Source: Hericium rajendrae (Eukaryota; Basidiomycota; Agaricomycetes; Russulales; Hericiaceae). Taken from it: a stretch of DNA of 64,000 bases. A program made the position numbers and the translations under genes. Shown piece by piece: positions 44,483 through 56,874 of the stretch (positions within the stretch are counted from its first letter, which is position 1; each line of letters begins with the position of its first letter). Location: positions 4,408,501-4,472,500 of the forward strand of contig CM065879.1 of NCBI GenBank assembly GCA_033439255.1. The letters run 5' to 3'. The notes beneath the pieces are model-generated. The model searched no databases. It had not been told where the DNA came from and worked only from the letters and a program-made list of their open reading frames with translations.

Positions 44483-44496
44483 GGTTGCTGGCAACC
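44483..44496 (+). promoter_or_regulatory. Leader palindrome GGTTGCTGGCAACC, paralog A
   Basis: A perfect inverted repeat (GGTTGC-TG-GCAACC) ends 9 nt before the ATG of paralog A and recurs 3 nt before the ATG of paralog B. It resembles an RFX-type X-box half-site pair with altered spacing, or a small leader hairpin. Which of the two it is cannot be told from sequence. Confidence 0.5.
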
Positions 44497-44505
44497 AACA
44501 CTATC

Positions 44506-45538
44506 ATGTCTCTCACCACGCGTTTCCTCGCAATGCCACTCGTTCAAACTTTCAATCCTTACTGCCGTCTGGTATGGCTTATGCTGGAGCTCATCATGCT
44601 TGCAACTGTCGGTGCCTTCGCTGTTTTCAAGTCCGCGCTTTATGCAGAGGGCTGGTTCGCAGCCGCTAAAGGTCAGCATCATTGTCCTTAAACACCCGCT
44701 CCCGGATCGATGATCATATGCATCGAATGAATTGTAGCCGTCTTCTACTACCTGAACTCGCTGCTTCCCCCGCTCTTCGGGTGGGCTGTCATCTCTGCCC
44801 CCGAGATCGTCGTTGCCATCCCCGATATCATCGTCACCAAGGACGACGACAAGCAGCCCGATCCCCCCAGCCCTCCCCCTCCCTACTCCTCCGTCGTCCC
44901 CGTCCAGCCGGTGCAACCCGCAGACAAGAACGACAAGGCCATCTCCAAGCCCCCCACCCCCAGAGCCGCCCCCTCCCCACCCCTCCCTCGGTGCCACCGC
45001 CCTGGAAAGGCTACTCCATGATCCCAGTCAAGCACTACAAGGACGGCAAATGGTCCGTCTACGAGGCGAAATACTGGAACGGCGCGCCGCTGTGCCGCCT
45101 GCCGACCGTGACCCCGCCGAAGGAGGGCCCGCGCCGCGTGATGCAGCCGCGCGCGGAGGTCGTGCGCCTCAAGCCCGGCGGCTTCCGCTTCCTCCCCAAC
45201 CCCGACCTCCTCGCGCCGCCCCGCGCGCCGTCGGCGGGCGCGTCCTCCCCGCGCGGCTCGTCAAGGTCGTCCCCGCCATCCGCTGCTTCGCGCCGGCGGT
45301 GGGGGACGTCGCGAGGCCGGTGAGGATCCCGGCGATGCAGATCCGCTATGTGAATCTGCATGTGCCGAGGGTGAATGACCATTCGAGGCTTAAACACGAG
45401 GATGAGGTGTTTTGGTTCCCGAAGCTGGGGCGGTACTTCCCGCGTGAGCCTCAGGCTTGGGAGAGGCGAACCTCGACGCGATGCCTGGTGCTTTCCGGCT
45501 GCGCAAGGCGGTGTTCTGAGCGGGGGTGGTGGAGGTGA
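44506..45538 (+). CDS. Paralog A: small membrane protein with Pro-rich cytosolic tail
   Basis: Exon 1 (MSLTTRFLAMPLVQTFNPYC...) holds a membrane segment (LVWLMLELIMLATVGAFAVF). A GTCAGC...TTGTAG intron leads to AVFYYLNSLLPPLFGWAVIS, a second hydrophobic stretch, then PPSPPPPYSSVVPVQP, and then a globular tail with SVYEAKYWNGAPL and DEVFWFPKLGRYFP. Every part has a counterpart in the minus-strand gene at 55,790-56,874. The reading frame changes twice, once in a C-rich run near 44,980 and once in a GC-rich run near 45,220, so the copy is either decayed or carries assembly errors. The family is unknown to me; a PPPPY motif suggests WW-domain binding. Confidence 0.6.
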
Positions 45539-45995
45539 GGTTGCGGACGTCGGGGCTCAATATTCGAAAACCAAAGTACAAGTTAGGTTGGGAGCGGGAG
45601 AGAGGTAATGTGGATGGTATGTTTTCTTGAGCTGGTTCTCGAGACCTTTTTTTTTTCGCAGCTTCCTCGGGGGACGCCCCGAATCGCGGATTTTCTGGCT
45701 TGCATCTGGACTTCAACTTCAACCTCAAACTTCACACCAAGCGCCTTGGACATTGTCTTTTTATAGTTCTTGGATCTTTGGCCCTTTCTCTGGACTCTCT
45801 GGCGATGTTTCCTAGGTTCTCTGGCTGCTCTGGCTTGTGGACGTCTCGTTCCGCTCTGATCTAGGTACGTATGCATCTTCCTCTCCTCTTTTTCATGTTT
45901 TCTTCCCTTCTAGGTTGCCGTGGATCGCAGTGCGTTTCCTTTCCTATATCTCCCTCTTGTAGACTTCCGTCCACTGCTTTCGCTTTTTCCTGTAC

Positions 45996-46078
45996 CGGTC
46001 TTAAGAAACAGACCGCTTTCGATGTACTACCCGTTGGTTTTGTGGGCCTTAAGAAGTAGGCCTTGTCTTTGTACGGGT
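45996..46078 (+). other. Structured non-coding module, copy A (two hairpins plus enclosing stem)
   Basis: Hairpin 1 is CGGTCT/AGACCG with loop TAAGAAAC (45996-46015). Hairpin 2 is GGCCT/AGGCC with loop TAAGAAGT (46045-46062). ACCCGT (46029-46034) and ACGGGT (46073-46078) pair around hairpin 2. The module starts 458 nt after the stop of paralog A. The B copy lies at the same distance from its gene, with compensatory changes in the enclosing stem. A long 3' UTR element or a separate RNA are both possible. Confidence 0.6.
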
Positions 46079-46213
46079 TGGCTCGGTTTACATTCGTCGT
46101 AGATACTTAGCTTCTTCTCGTGTCTTTGGTTCGGGTGGGACGGTCATCGGGTTGGCTTGGGTTTGGGATGGGGTGGTCGGACGGGAATGCTGTGGGCGAC
46201 AGAGAGTACCCCA

Positions 46214-46450
46214 GGCTCGGGTGGGTGGGTGGGCCGTGAGTCTTTCATTCTTTGATCTACCACACCGAGCTCATCCTCCATTTATTTTCCAGCTACGGGC
46301 GCTATAAAATTTCTTGGGATCGAGAGGACTCCGGGCTCGGGTGGGTGGGTGGGCCGTAAGTCCTTCAATGTTTTGACTCACCACGTCATTGCTCAACTTC
46401 CGTTTGTTTACAGCTAGCGGTGCTACAAAATTTCTGCGATGGGAGGTCGG
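46214..46450 (+). other. Tandem exon-intron unit with GGGT runs beside 5' splice sites
   Basis: A unit repeated at 120-bp spacing. GGGTGGGTGGGTGGGCC (46219-46235) abuts GTGAGT, and an intron-like stretch runs 46236-46292 to TTCCAG. The second copy has GGGTGGGTGGGTGGGCC (46339-46355) abutting GTAAGT, with the intron 46356-46413 ending TTTACAG. The 63-nt stretch between looks like a duplicated exon (CTACGGGCGCTATAAAATTTC versus a close variant). The G runs could form quadruplexes. No long reading frame is present, so this is probably spliced non-coding RNA or UTR. Confidence 0.5.
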
Positions 46451-47082
46451 GAAGATATATCAAGGCGCGTGGACATGTTGGATTCAATCTTATTCATTTC
46501 TCTTGTTATGGCCCCCTTCGCTAACGTCGCTTGACCTAGCTTTGCTACAGATCACACATATGTCCTCCCCGCACCAAGCCTTGATCTGGGAGAAGATGTG
46601 GCGATCTGACTACTTCGTCTTTCGCTGGTTTCCTTGCTTCATGCCATGTTCTGACCTTTTTATTCCTATAGCGTGCGCTCAACGCGCCGCCCACTGTGCA
46701 TTCTTTCCAGGCCTTTTTGAGGTTGGGGCTCTGTCTCCGTCGCGTTTTGAAGGCTGCGCTGTTTGTTTATATCATGTCCATTTTCGATTCTCGCGTATAT
46801 CTGGTTCTATGTTGCGTGGTATTCGGAATAATTTCGGGCTCGATTCTGGGTAATCTTATGTGATTCTAGAGTGAAATAATACACGTCATAAGAGCAAAAG
46901 AACTGCTTTTGTAGTCCTCTTTTGAAAATCGGGGGAAATGGGGAATATATTTCACGTCACGTGCCGAGGAATATGGGCGCGTTGCCGTCGCCGTGTCCTG
47001 CAGCGAGCACGCAAGTTCTGCTCTTGACCACCTTGAAGGCATCTTTTCTCAACCGTCATATGCGCCCCAACTCCCATCAATC

Positions 47083-50000
47083 ATGACTGGGACTTCGGGC
47101 TACTCAATAGCCCGTCTGTTGTTCCTCGGACTCGTCTTCCACCTCGTCTACATCGGCACCGTCTTCGACTGCTACTTCACGAGTCCAGTGGTCCATGGCA
47201 TGCGCCCTTATAAAGTCTCCCACGCGCCAGCGAAGCGTCTGGTGCTGATCGTAGGTGTGCATGAACGGAGCTTTACTTGTGTTGCGCGTAAGGTTGACTG
47301 AATGACTGCATACAGGCGACGGCTTGCGCGCCGACTTTGTGTTCAGCGCGAATGCGACTGCGATTGTCCCACAGGCGCCTGAACGCGTCGCGCCGTATCT
47401 CCGAGAGGTAGTAGAGTCTAGGGGCGCGTATGGGATATCGCATACTAGGGTGCCGACGGAGAGCAGGCCGGGGCACGTTGCTATCATTGGTGTGTGGATC
47501 TTCCCAGAGTTTCGGATGTTCAGATGTTGAAAGTCCTTCAGCTGGAATGTACGAGGATGTATCTGCTGTAACAAAGGTCTATTCGTTGATATTTCTGGTC
47601 GGATGTGATTGCACTGAACTCTGAGAGCAGGGATGGAAGACCAATCCGGTGCGCGTCGACCGCTCTATTTCTGGGCCTGTCTTCTGAAGCAGCGATAAAC
47701 ATAGGTGGAATTTGATTCCGTATTTAACCAATCCAGCCATACCTTCAGCTTTGGGTCACCGGATATATTACCCATGTTCGCAAGAGGTGCTACCCAGGAA
47801 AGGTCAAGACGTGGTGCTATGAAGATGAGGATGAGGATTTCACTAAAGGTAAATCCCAACTTTTCATTTCCTGTCAGCGATTTTGAACCCTGAGGCAGAT
47901 GCGACCGCGTTGGATATATGGGTCTTGGACCAGCTGCAGGTTCTGCTGAAGAACGCTACGTCGGATGATACCTTGAACTCTCAACTTCGCGAAGACGGAG
48001 TCGTATTCTTCTTACATCTTTTGGGTTTGGATACCACTGGACACTCATATAGACCGCATTCGAAGGTATTTCGGAAAAGAATCACGTCCTGCTGGAATAG
48101 TGCGAGCTTACGCGGAAGTTAGGAATATATGCATAATATCGAAGTCGTGGACGGCATTGTGCGCGACGCGGAGAAGCTACTATTAGATTTTTACGGTGAC
48201 TCAGAGACAAGCTACATCTTTACCGCTGATCACGGCATGTCGAAAATCGGGAACCATGGCGACGGCGGTATGTCCTCTTCAACCCAGCAGTTGCAATGCT
48301 TATTTCAGACCGAATACAGATCCCGACAGCACTCGCACACCACTAATAGCGTGGGGTGCGGGCATCCGTGGTCCTCAACCAGCCCCTTCGCCGGAAATTG
48401 ATGAGTACTCTGCACCCTGGGAGCTGTCGCACCTTGTGCGGCGCGATGTTGAGCAAGCAGACATCGCCGCGCTGATGTCGACGCTCCTTGGCATGCCTTG
48501 GCCTGTCAATTCTGTAGGCGTGCTGCCTGACATCAATGCAACGCAATCTGGATACCTCGAGACGAGCGAGGGTGAGAAAGGCGTTGCGAGAGCCGGACTC
48601 ACGAACGCACAGGTATTCTTCGCTTCTTGTTTTCTAGCAGAGCGATTGTTCATTATTGGTTTAGGTGCTTTTAGAGCATTACCGGGTAAAGGAAAGTGGT
48701 CCTTTCCATCATTTTCTATCTTCAACTATCAACTTACTGCTTGCTTGTATTGTCACGAAGAGCTTAAGCGACAGCATGCCTTGAGATACAAACCATTTAA
48801 CGGCATCGATCATTCCACAGAGTTCCCAGGCTGGTCCGATATATCTCAAATTGAAAAGTTGATCCACGAGAGCCATTACCGAGAGGCTCGAGCGACGACC
48901 TACGAACTCGTGCAGACGACTTTACAGGGTCTGCGATATCTGGAAACGTATGACAGGACTTTTATCCGTATGATGGTCAGCGTCGCGTACACCGGCTGGA
49001 TCGCTTATAGCACTGCGTTTATTCTCGCCCCAGTCGCGTCCTCACAACGCGTATCTGGCCTTACGATCATCGCAGCCTCGATTGTCATCGTCTTCTGGTC
49101 GCTTTTCGCCATCGAGAAGGCACCATGGACCTTCTACGTCTACATCGTATTTCCCGTGTACTTCTGGCGGGGCGCTGCCTCTCGAATCTGGGATCCCCTT
49201 ATGGCGCTGGCGACGACAGGCCGGTTATCCTATGGCGGGAGGAAAGAGGTGTTCACTATGGCCGGTGGAGCTGCGTTGACGGTGGCTGCATTGCAATGCA
49301 TGGTTGTGCGTTCCATCTCTTCACATATAACTCCAGATTGCTACCTTATTGACCATCGGACTTACGCAGCTCGGGTACACGCACCGTACGTTATGGAGCG
49401 TGGGCTTTAGCATCATCGGCGTCTTGTGGCCCTTGACGTCATGGCCTTCAACTCTTTTGCAGCAAAGACCGGGTTTACTTGTTGCGTGGGCGATGTCTTG
49501 TCTCATCAGTGCGATTTTCCCGTTGTTGAGGGTAGATCCTGACGAGGGCCTTGTGACAATGTGAGTCCGCCAGTCCTTGCAGGTACATTTCTGTTTGCCT
49601 CTAACACATACCTTCGCGATGTGACCTACAGACTTGGTGGAGGATCATGCATGCTCATAGCTGGTGTGCTTGGCATCTCTGTGTTCGTACGTGGCAAGGG
49701 GAAGTCGAACGAAGCTCTGAGGCAGATGTTCGGCATCCAGGTGAGAGGAGATGGTTTCGAGGCACTCAGAATCTGATGCATTCCCTGGCTCCAGCTTGTT
49801 TTCATAGGAACAAGCATGGCTATCACGGCGAGCTCCGTCGCCAGTCTCCAAGCAAAGCTGGGTCTTCCCATCTTCAACCAGCTCGCTGGCTGGCTTGTGC
49901 TCGGTAAGCCTCTTCATTCGCATATCCCCCATTCTTATCAAATATTCCCCAACAGTGGCCGCCTCCATATACCCATTTCTCCAATCAGTGACGCATCCCG

Positions 50001-54049: not shown

Positions 54050-55028
54050 CGCCTGCTGTTCCGCCCGCATACCCTCACGACAGGCTGGCGCATCATTTTG
54101 CTCGCTCTTGCCCCGCCTCGCTTCGTGGACATGGATCTAGCATCGTATTTATTGGACCAGCACGCATTGCTCACGACTTCACGATCTCGTTGTATCATCA
54201 TCCATCACCCGCCGCGACACCACCGCATACCCGCGCTCCTCGTCACGCCCCCGTACACGGACATACCCGCATGTGTCGATAGAGAGCACACCACTAGCAG
54301 CTACTTACAGTTATCGCAACCGGTTTGGCGACGTACATCTCATTGCACGGCATCTTGTGTATACATAATTCAATTTGCAATTTTGTTCTGTCTGTTTTGG
54401 GTGGTGTGTGGATCGAGTTTTGCGGTCTGATGCATGGGCTCTTTGGGTGAGCTATCATAGAAGGCGAGCTAGACTGGTGGCCGCGCGTTCCGATCTTGTA
54501 TTTGGACGTCGGAAAATCTGATTATGAGGTTATGAGCAAGTAAGGATCATCCTGACCAGGAGGCACGTTGTGCGCTTGAATTCAAGGAAACAAGCAGTTA
54601 GAGATATACGAACCAGAGCTCGAGAAGATAAGCAGAGCATACAGGGAAGACAAACCGGAATGCAGCATTCACAGAATTGCAAGTTAACGCGGCGATAGCA
54701 TTGAAAAGAACGCTCATGCGCAGTGCCGAATGCCCGCATCTGCGGAAATATTCTGAGAATCATCGGTGGCGTAAGAGAAGGGGCGGACTGACCTTGAATA
54801 GACACGATGACAGCCATGGCCGGACATCCTACTGAAGAGCCATGGTCAAGTCGCGAACAGACAGGTTAAGGCATTGATGTGAGGGTAAATACATATCTGT
54901 ATGACCAGACGTTTGCATGGGTTCGATGTCCATAATTATCGAAAATGTTAGCACTCCAGAAACAGATTGATAGGACTTATCTGTCCTTCCTGAGAGTTCG
55001 TTCAGCGTAACCATGTTTCGCCGCGTAA
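54050..55028. other. Non-coding flank; downstream part of the copy B unit
   Basis: A short minus-strand spliced frame is conceivable: MAVIVSIQ, intron GTCAGT...TCTCAG, then a hydrophobic exon ending LLELWFVYL near 54,600. It follows the copy B non-coding unit. I see no homology or motif to support it. Confidence 0.3.
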
Positions 55029-55102
55029 CTGAAAGAAAAATAGAAATGAGCATGGTGTGGCAGGTAAAAATGTTGAAAAACTCACAGGCCACCCACCCAC
55101 CC
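55029..55102 (-). other. GGGT run and intron-like unit, copy B
   Basis: Minus-strand counterpart of 46214-46450. GGGTGGGTGGGTGGCCT precedes GTGAGT at 55085, and a 57-nt intron-like stretch ends CTTTCAG at 55029. The last G run here is only two bases. It lies 147 nt beyond the B hairpin module, compared with 141 nt in copy A. Confidence 0.5.
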
Positions 55103-55248
55103 GCACCTGGTATCCTCTCTAGTCCCCGCAAACTATCCATTCAATCTCGCTCCAGCCTATCTCTATACCAAATCCTCTTCTTCTCGACTCGTACCAATGG
55201 TGGCTATGAAAAACCGCTAAGTATCTCTAACGAAACTAATCCGAGACA

Positions 55249-55332
55249 GCCCATACAAAAACAAGGCCTACTTCTTAAGGCCATACAAAACCAATGGGCG
55301 ATACATAGAAACGGTCTGTTTCTTGAAACCGT
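55249..55332 (-). other. Structured non-coding module, copy B
   Basis: Hairpin 1 (55311-55332) is ACGGTTT/AAACCGT-side pairing read as ACGGTTT with AGACCGT, loop CAAGAAAC, including one G-U pair. Hairpin 2 (55265-55282) is GGCCT/AGGCC with loop TAAGAAGT, identical to copy A. The enclosing stem is GCCCAT/ATGGGC against ACCCGT/ACGGGT in copy A, so two base pairs changed on both sides. The distance from the stop of paralog B is 458 nt, the same as in copy A. Confidence 0.6.
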
Positions 55333-55789
55333 TACAGGAAAATAGCGGCAGGGGAAGACGAAAAGCATACATGATCCACATCCTAGAAAGAGAGATAATG
55401 ACGAGGAAAGTAGAAACGCACCGTTATCTAGAAGCATCCTAGGAGATTGAAAATCCGTAGGCCAGAGAGTCCAGAAACCCAGAAAGTCGCCAGAGACAGA
55501 AAACCAGAGCCAGAGAGCCAGAGAACAGCCAGAGCAAGGGAGCGTCCTCCCACAGTCACAAGAATCTGAGGCCAGGCCAAAGGAGAAATCCGAGGTCTTG
55601 AAGGTTTGAAGACAAGCCAGAGCAGCCAGGAATCCTGTAAAAGAAAGACCGAGAACCAGCTCGGGTCAACACCTCCCAACACTCGCATCACCTGCGTCGC
55701 CGCCTTGTACTTGGATTTTCGAATGTTGCTCCCTTGACGTCCGCTGCCCTTCCCATCCGCGGCCTCCACCTGTCCTACCCGCCGCGCGC

Positions 55790-56874
55790 TCAGAACGGCG
55801 CCTCGTACCATGCCTGGTTAGCACCATACATCACGGGCTCCTCATACTCCTCCAAATCCATCATCGCCATGTCCTCGGATACCACCGCAGGCTCGAGCGC
55901 ATACTCACCCTCTGGACTGGAGAAGTAAAAGTCCTGATCAAATGGCCGCAGCCGCCCATGTCCATTCAGCTTCGGCACGTCGAGGAAATCGTACAGCACC
56001 TGTGGCGGAAGCCGCACCGGCCGCGCAGCCTCCTTGGGACCCTGCAGGGTCAGCCCCGGGCGCACGCGCACGAGGTGGTCCGGGACGACGCGGCCGCCGC
56101 GGTCGAGCGCGGGCGGCGCGAGGCCGCTCGGCGAGGGCGGGTAACGGAAGCCGTCGACGACGACCCACTCGCGCTGCGGCTGCGCGACGGTGCCTTCCGC
56201 GGGCGGGATCACCGCTGGCTCCGCGGGGAGCGGCGCGCCGTTCCAGAACTTGGCCTCGTGGACCGCGCCGTGCGCGTCTGGACCTCGACGACGGTGAAGA
56301 CGCCACCCCAGTCGGGGCCCGCGCGGTCAGGTGGGGGCGGAGGAATGGGGTGGCGGGAGGCTTCGTATGGAGGTGCAGCGGGCCGCTTATCGGAAGCACC
56401 GGTGGGCGGCCGCGAGGTGGGGATCCAACCCATGGGACTCAGCCTGTCGCTGGCCTCGTCGATCTCGTCTATGGGTTCTTGCAGCTCCTGATGGGCTGCG
56501 AACTCGGCATAGGCCGGAGGAGCGTCCTCGCCCTCTTCATCCGAAAGAACGATGGTGGGGATGGGACCGACGGGCCTGGATGACCACCCGATGAGGGGAT
56601 ACGGGAGCAGCGACTTCAAGAACGCCAGCATGGCTGAACATGATTTGCATTGTCAATGAGCGAGATGTGGGAAAATAAGTTCATGACGGAGATGCGCACC
56701 TTCGACCGCTGCGGTCCAGCCGCGGATGGAGAGCGTGGCTTTGAAGAGCAGCAGAGTGCCGAATGCAAGGGCGACAGCGAGCCTGAACATCAAGTCTACC
56801 AGACGGAAGTTTGCTGGGACCCGGCGAGCCTGTTCGACAGGCATGGCGAGCGCCGTAAGAATGAAGGAAAGCAT
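55790..56874 (-). CDS. Paralog B: small membrane protein with Pro-rich cytosolic tail
   Basis: Exon 1 (MLSFILTALAMPVEQARRV...) has the membrane segment LVDLMFRLAVALAFGTLLLF. An intron (GTGCGC...GTTCAG) at the same place as in paralog A leads to AMLAFLKSLLPYPLIGW. An acidic DEEGEDAPPAY, a Pro-rich stretch, VHEAKFWNGAPL and DQDFYFSSPEGEYALEP follow; the last two match VYEAKYWNGAPL and DEVFWFPKLGRYFP of paralog A. The frame changes once, near 56,270, in a GC-rich run. It is oriented toward paralog A, so the two form an inverted pair about 10 kb apart. Function unknown. Confidence 0.6.

Follow-up and report, generated by a model that had tools for sequence, protein, structure and literature searches.

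Each of two inverted paralogous genes in the window (the whole stretch of DNA analysed, 64,000 nucleotides long) is followed on its 3' side by the same two-hairpin structure. Both copies hold the structure, compensated changes preserve its pairing, and it stands out as an island of conservation. Within our genome searches it is restricted to this gene pair. We call the two genes, and the module that belongs to each of them, A and B.

We propose that the module acts in cis, as a structured RNA element located in the 3' untranslated region (3' UTR) of the mRNAs of the two orphan paralogs. This reading is tentative, and our confidence in it falls slightly short of even. Its co-transcription with the gene, its binding by a protein and a regulatory outcome are what we infer.

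Structure of the module

Copy A of the module spans 45986-46091 on the plus strand and copy B spans 55236-55338 on the minus strand. These intervals entered the alignment, the consensus fold and the pair counts, and the genome search finds just this pair. The predicted folds have the same layout in both copies: hairpin 1, a spacer, and then a 6-bp stem around hairpin 2. Alignment and folding agree here with the initial annotation, which had placed two copies at these sites and described them as alike in fold.

Hairpin 1 lies at 45996-46015 (plus) in A, with the loop UAAGAAAC, and at 55331-55312 (minus) in B, with the loop CAAGAAAC and one U-G pair. Its loops differ between the copies, whereas hairpin 2 (46045-46062, plus, in A; 55282-55265, minus, in B) carries the loop UAAGAAGU in both. 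The arms of the enclosing stem are separated by 38-39 bases. In A they are ACCCGT (46029-46034) and ACGGGT (46073-46078) on the plus strand, in B GCCCAT (55299-55294) and ATGGGC (55254-55249) on the minus strand. The stem that carries hairpin 2 has conserved internal loops. On the 3' side of the module the alignment contains an invariant AGATACTTAGC (46101-46111, plus; 55216-55226, minus).

The two hairpins of a copy resemble each other. They have the common layout GGYYU-YAAGAARY-AGRCC, and in A and B alike hairpin 1 has U-A as its third stem pair where hairpin 2 has C-G (GGUCU/AGACC versus GGCCU/AGGCC). The suggestion that one hairpin arose from the other fits this compensated difference inside a shared layout with the loop YAAGAARY.

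In their sequence context, hairpin 2 and the enclosing stem have a predicted formation of at least 0.83, save for a single zero value. The zero concerns hairpin 2 of B at a flank of 200 nt and is probably an artefact of the script, which matched an earlier GGCCT in the flank. Hairpin 1 of A has a predicted formation of at least 0.96, except for its outer pair (0.20-0.91). Hairpin 1 of B reaches just 0.39-0.77 and varies with the flank.

Compensated changes

Over 102 gap-free columns, modules A and B differ by 15 substitutions, 10 transitions and 5 transversions. Five of them fall in the 34 paired columns, and no pair is broken. Fourteen of the 17 pairs are unchanged, two are changed on both sides and one goes from C-G to U-G. 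The two compensated pairs belong to the enclosing stem, where an A-U pair of A is G-C in B and a G-C pair of A is A-U in B. Complementarity is kept on both sides of that stem, as the initial annotation had pointed out. It had also noted that hairpin 1 keeps its pairing through a C-to-T change, and this is the U-G pair of B.

How often would chance produce such a pattern? We placed the same 15 substitutions at random, in 200,000 trials per starting copy. At least two compensated pairs with no broken pair arose in 0.087% of trials from A and in 0.073% of trials from B. When the partner columns are slid by 1 to 3 positions, no more than 57.6% of cells stay paired, down from 100%, and no compensated pair is left. 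Column shuffles match the energy of the consensus fold in 2 of 1000 cases when they preserve column classes and in 1 of 1000 when they are free (z of -3.41 and -3.99). Three or more compensated pairs appear in 9 and 8 of 1000 such shuffles, respectively. If A is instead mutated at random, the consensus energy is attained by 62 of 2000 alignments, and three compensated pairs arise in 13 of 2000. The per-pair shuffle control, powerless with two sequences, reaches the observed value in 120 of 500 cases.

Not every predicted pair is shared. The minimum-energy fold of each copy contains some additional pairs that the other copy cannot form (2 of 24 in A's fold, 4 of 25 in B's). Columns 10 and 97 hold what may be a third compensated change, from C-G to A-U, which would close a three-way junction. 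We treat it as tentative, since its stem is absent from both minimum-energy folds. A conserved RNA structure with compensated pairs 3' of both paralogs, as first proposed, is what the consensus fold and the pair counts of the two sequences support. For a two-sequence case the structure of the module is well supported, and to that extent only.

An island of conservation

In windows of 60 columns, counted over gap-free columns, the identity of the module is 77-88%. A second, lower peak of 74-76% coincides with a G-rich unit further downstream. The remaining windows with aligned letters, coding sequence and coding intron included, have identities of 39-73%. Hence the noncoding module has changed less than the protein gene on its 5' side (77-88% identity against 39-76% elsewhere).

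Recent local gene conversion could be another way to raise the identity of the module. In its strongest form, conversion between the copies would be the sole cause of the similarity and the fold would be due to chance. The identity island is sharp and the inverted paralogs are about 9 kb apart, both of which suit conversion. Yet the module has accumulated its 15 substitutions with five in paired columns and not one broken pair, for which the chance is below 0.1%. We regard conversion with a chance fold as very unlikely.

Strand

We read the module as a sense-strand RNA, a reading that the predicted folds favour weakly and with mixed evidence. Read from the opposite strand, the U-G pair in hairpin 1 of B would become C-A, so that its pairing holds in the sense RNA only, and B's antisense fold loses hairpin 1. 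The energy of the consensus fold is -27.15 kcal/mol for sense versus -21.30 kcal/mol for antisense. Against shuffled sequences, single folds are better for antisense (z of -2.96 and -2.75) than for sense, where they are unremarkable (-1.68 and -1.70). A consensus-fold scan scored 182 of 192 windows, and the module windows are high on either strand. In three shared scan windows the antisense strand scores as well as the sense strand or better (z of -4.90/-4.93, -4.49/-2.40, -5.71/-3.07). The ranking of the scan was set aside, since its top z of -7.11 belongs to a window with 29 gap columns whose gaps were scattered by shuffling.

The strength of the antisense windows, which match or beat sense against shuffles, is what would be expected if the module were conserved as DNA, for example as transcription factor sites or an enhancer, with an incidental RNA fold. 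The stems are also short near-palindromes. Such a DNA element, however, does not account for two pairs changing in concert in stem arms that are 38-39 bases apart, nor for a U-G pair kept in the sense RNA only. We give conservation as DNA very little credence.

Host genes and neighbourhood

Gene A, which encodes an orphan PPxY protein, runs from its first ATG to the aligned stop at 44506-45519 (plus) and has three frame breaks in the assembly. Its inverted paralog, gene B, occupies 55790-56874 (minus) and has one. The similarity of the two proteins persists across the frame breaks, which may be either sequencing errors or recent decay. As read from the translations, both proteins combine a hydrophobic N-terminal part with PPxY motifs. 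For four open reading frame (ORF) pieces of the two genes, Pfam gives no match at E 0.1, and the joined protein B has no match at E <= 1 among 7219 candidates.

Copy A is followed on the same strand by a PIG-N gene that starts near 47083, according to ORF reading and a domain match. Among the named matches of one ORF of this gene, located between the two sites, the best-scoring one is from Hermanssonia centrifuga, with 45% identity across 82% of the query, and other mushroom-forming fungi come next. We take this to point to a basidiomycete, probably one of the Polyporales. Copy B faces the 3' side of an OTU-type gene. The downstream neighbours thus differ, and the common factor of the two sites is the paralog upstream.

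The initial annotation had both modules start 458 nt from the stop codon of their gene. This distance holds for B (stop at 55790-55792). For A it relies on a stop in another frame (45536-45538), whereas from the stop that aligns with B's (45517-45519) the distance is 477 nt. For a fungal 3' UTR, some 460-480 nt between stop and module is a long distance.

The long distance between stop and module favours another reading, namely an independent noncoding RNA (ncRNA) gene 3' of each paralog. It would have been duplicated together with the paralog, and the module would form the structured core of this RNA, with spliced G-rich exons after it. In line with this, the module and the G-rich intron-like units outdo the coding sequence in conservation. 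The intron-like parts of the units, of the form GTRAGT...YAG, are 57-58 nt long and have branch-like sites. Against a separate gene, no known ncRNA family matches, and shared elements before the ATG and directly after the stop fit one transcription unit. We consider an independent ncRNA gene unlikely.

Companion elements of the gene pair

The elements shared by A and B begin upstream of the coding sequence. A palindrome, GGTTGCTGGCAACC, lies 9 bases before the ATG in A (44483-44496, plus) and 3 bases before it in B (56891-56878, minus). Its 22-base context, with at most 3 mismatches, occurs at two places in the genome, A and B, and at none in the control. The palindrome could be an RNA hairpin with a CUGG loop or a DNA site. 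As RNA, its predicted formation in B is 0.13, and it is also a plausible DNA site of the RFX type.

Past the stop (106 nt in A, 126 nt in B) follows a companion hairpin with a CUGGUU loop. In A it has 7 bp (45625-45644, plus) and a predicted formation of 0.92-0.98, and a candidate intron at 45617-45661 could remove it. In B it has 5 bp (55649-55664, minus) and a predicted formation of just 0.17-0.32. A lone CUGG hairpin is unsurprising, because the window contains 20 CUGG-type hairpins of at least 5 bp on its two strands.

Between stop and module lie clusters of CTCTGG (about 45690-45840, plus; 55465-55640, minus) with the highest counts of the window. The 3' regions hold 4 copies in A and 7 in B, where an 800-nt window has 0.25 on average.

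UGUA sites lie around the stems of the module, at 45958, 45991, 46023 and 46070 in A and at 55371, 55336, 55305, 55287 and 55257 in B. Their counts are moderately above those of shuffled sequences, being reached by 44 of 500 shuffles for A and 9 of 500 for B. The genome encodes a CFIm25-type domain. A general role of UGUA after genes found no support: of 59 ORF ends 19 were kept, with 14 loci that overlap or lie near A and B left out, and 3' of these 19 UGUA is no commoner than its reverse complement.

Downstream of the module come the G-rich units, two in A (46219-46292 and 46339-46413, plus) and one in B (55029-55102, minus). All are intron-like. In the first unit of A, GGGTGGGTGGGTGGGCC abuts a candidate intron at 46236-46292; the candidate introns of the second unit and of B's unit lie at 46356-46413 and 55085-55029. 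In each unit a perfect or near-perfect G-quadruplex motif, GGGTGGGTGGGTGG, stands immediately 5' of a candidate 5' splice site (46219-46241 and 46339-46361, plus; 55080-55102, minus). The motif followed by GTRAGT occurs at three places in the genome, two in tandem in A and one in B, and at none in the control.

Taken together, A and B share an ordered set of elements that starts upstream of the ATG and ends about 760-775 nt beyond the stop, as expected of one transcription unit.

The module itself may hold a splice site as well. Candidate introns of the form GTAGGC...TAG begin inside hairpin 2, at 46056-46102 in A (47 nt) and 55271-55227 in B (45 nt). Hairpin 2 would then mask the candidate 5' splice site AAGAA|GTAGGC, which spans its loop and the 3' side of its stem, and its unfolding would let an intron of 45-47 nt be removed. 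The fungal TPP riboswitch governs splicing in this general way (PMC8216456). Nevertheless the candidate site lacks the GTRAGT form of the neighbouring units, no branch-like site was found in the 45-47 nt introns, and hairpin 1 has no equivalent site. Splicing control by hairpin 2 is, in our estimate, quite improbable.

Comparison with known RNA elements

No Rfam family fits the module, in agreement with the initial annotation, which knew of no described RNA element that matches. Rfam 15 gives no match at gathering score in the window. With lax settings, one match below the cut-off appears in 45540-46640, outside the module (TCL6_1, 15.8 bits versus 60), and none in 54950-55790. No tRNA identity was found.

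H/ACA snoRNAs also consist of two successive hairpins, of which the second has a large internal loop. Their H box ANANNA lies between the hairpins and their ACA box after the second. By eye, the spacer contains no ANANNA in either copy, and the sequence after hairpin 2 is TTACAT in A and TTAGTT in B, so an ACA is present in A only. We rejected an H/ACA identity. The fungal TPP riboswitch resembles the module in having a structure through which splicing could be affected. Its host genes are thiamine genes, whereas those of the module are orphans, and the window has no Rfam match.

The conserved structures in fungal 3' UTRs are comparable as well. In a screen that reports 17 conserved RNAs (PMC8216456), these are, like the module, structured, carry compensated pairs and lie 3' of a coding region. 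They are mostly single copy per genome and mostly of unknown function, and those tabulated in the portion consulted stem from ascomycete queries with about 48-170 sequences each. The module differs from that set in coming from a presumed basidiomycete, in having two copies in one genome and in having orphan host genes. It is described neither in that portion of the screen nor in the excerpted text of a survey of long noncoding RNAs in two brown-rot basidiomycetes (PMC6525899). Among the titles listed for open-access literature on covarying RNA, UTR structure, basidiomycetes or Polyporales, and AAGAA hairpin loops, there was no such element. A structured 3'-UTR element is a known kind of element, and this particular one appears to be new.

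A possible mechanism

Under the preferred 3'-UTR reading, the look-alike stem-loops GGYYU-YAAGAARY-AGRCC would probably give a single RNA-binding protein two sites to bind. Once bound, this protein would tune how stable both mRNAs are, how their 3' ends are processed or how they are translated. For the AAGAA loops, splicing factors of the Tra2 type are at most a conceivable partner.

For the CUGGUU companion hairpin the candidate partner would be a Vts1-type SAM protein encoded in the genome (L036). Its SAM domain matches solved Vts1 chains (E 9e-15) and Smaug (1.3e-5). The Smaug family recognises loops with the consensus CNGGN0-3 (PMC4053848). It is the companion hairpin, with its CNGG-type loop CUGGUU, that resembles the Smaug recognition elements described there, and not the module. 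The loops of the module are YAAGAARY rather than CNGG, and for B the prediction of the companion hairpin is weak. The Ccr4-Pop2-Not deadenylase is believed to be recruited by yeast Vts1 (PMC3468468). The idea of a Vts1-type partner is weakened by the low predicted formation in B of both the CUGGUU hairpin and the palindrome. It is weakened further by the candidate intron that spans the hairpin of A and by the palindrome being a plausible RFX-type site.

The 3'-UTR reading has its own weak points: two sequences only, mixed strand evidence and the weak hairpin 1 of B. Two distant family members without the module and folds that add mutually broken pairs also count against it.

A more far-reaching version is rather doubtful in our view, if conceivable. 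The module would exemplify a twin-loop class of regulatory RNA, lineage-specific in mushroom-type fungi, in which paired YAAGAARY hairpins recruit one RNA-binding protein in duplicate. It would act within a multi-element 3' UTR consisting of the CUGG-loop hairpin, the CTCTGG cluster, the twin-loop module and the G-quadruplex motif at an intron edge. The proteins would diverge faster than the RNA, and 3'-UTR splicing might be coupled to mRNA decay.

Either way, a module that is better conserved than its gene and presents one loop in two copies offers a clear handle for fishing an RNA-binding protein. Should the module belong to a 3' UTR that is spliced and has a G-quadruplex motif at the splice site, a compact fungal system for splicing-decay coupling would be at hand.

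Further copies and distant family members

The genome (46.8 Mb, 19 contigs) yielded two copies of the module. The 1.08-kb region has no third place in the genome, with search counts being lower bounds. With two copies found in these searches, we rejected a transposable element or repeat. The exact core of hairpin 2 is absent from the viral contigs searched. With at most 3 mismatches the core has 16 places in the genome, and its reversed control has 36. When one mismatch is allowed to the general pattern of the hairpins, there are five places (the four module hairpins and one on contig C15), and eight for the reversed control. There is no sign of a wider use of the hairpin, because the reversed controls give more places than the hairpin patterns. 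A protein search with the three open frames across the module returned two candidates, none at E <= 10.

When the genome is searched at the protein level with the C-terminal portion of B, two more distant places (E 1.8e-5 and 1.1e-3) come up besides A. By BLASTP, B matches C2:4357473 at E 4e-8. A covariance model of the module, which is weak for distant copies since it was built from two near-identical sequences, has no match at two other family members in the same genome (C2:4357473 and C2:2893073). We rejected a family-wide element on this ground. Nor does the model match at a weak fifth protein match to the same query on C14 (L034, E 0.4). In the 900 nt 3' of the stop, the two distant relatives have no CUGG hairpins and no G-rich units, and CTCTGG occurs once in one and not in the other.

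The distant members have features of their own past the stop. A GTGAGT, like a 5' splice site, directly follows the stop in L033 (from 2837, plus) and L032 (from 3953, minus). By eye, these two share their own conserved stretch 3' of the stop, around GGAGACRTCKCGACGCRCYATTGCC.
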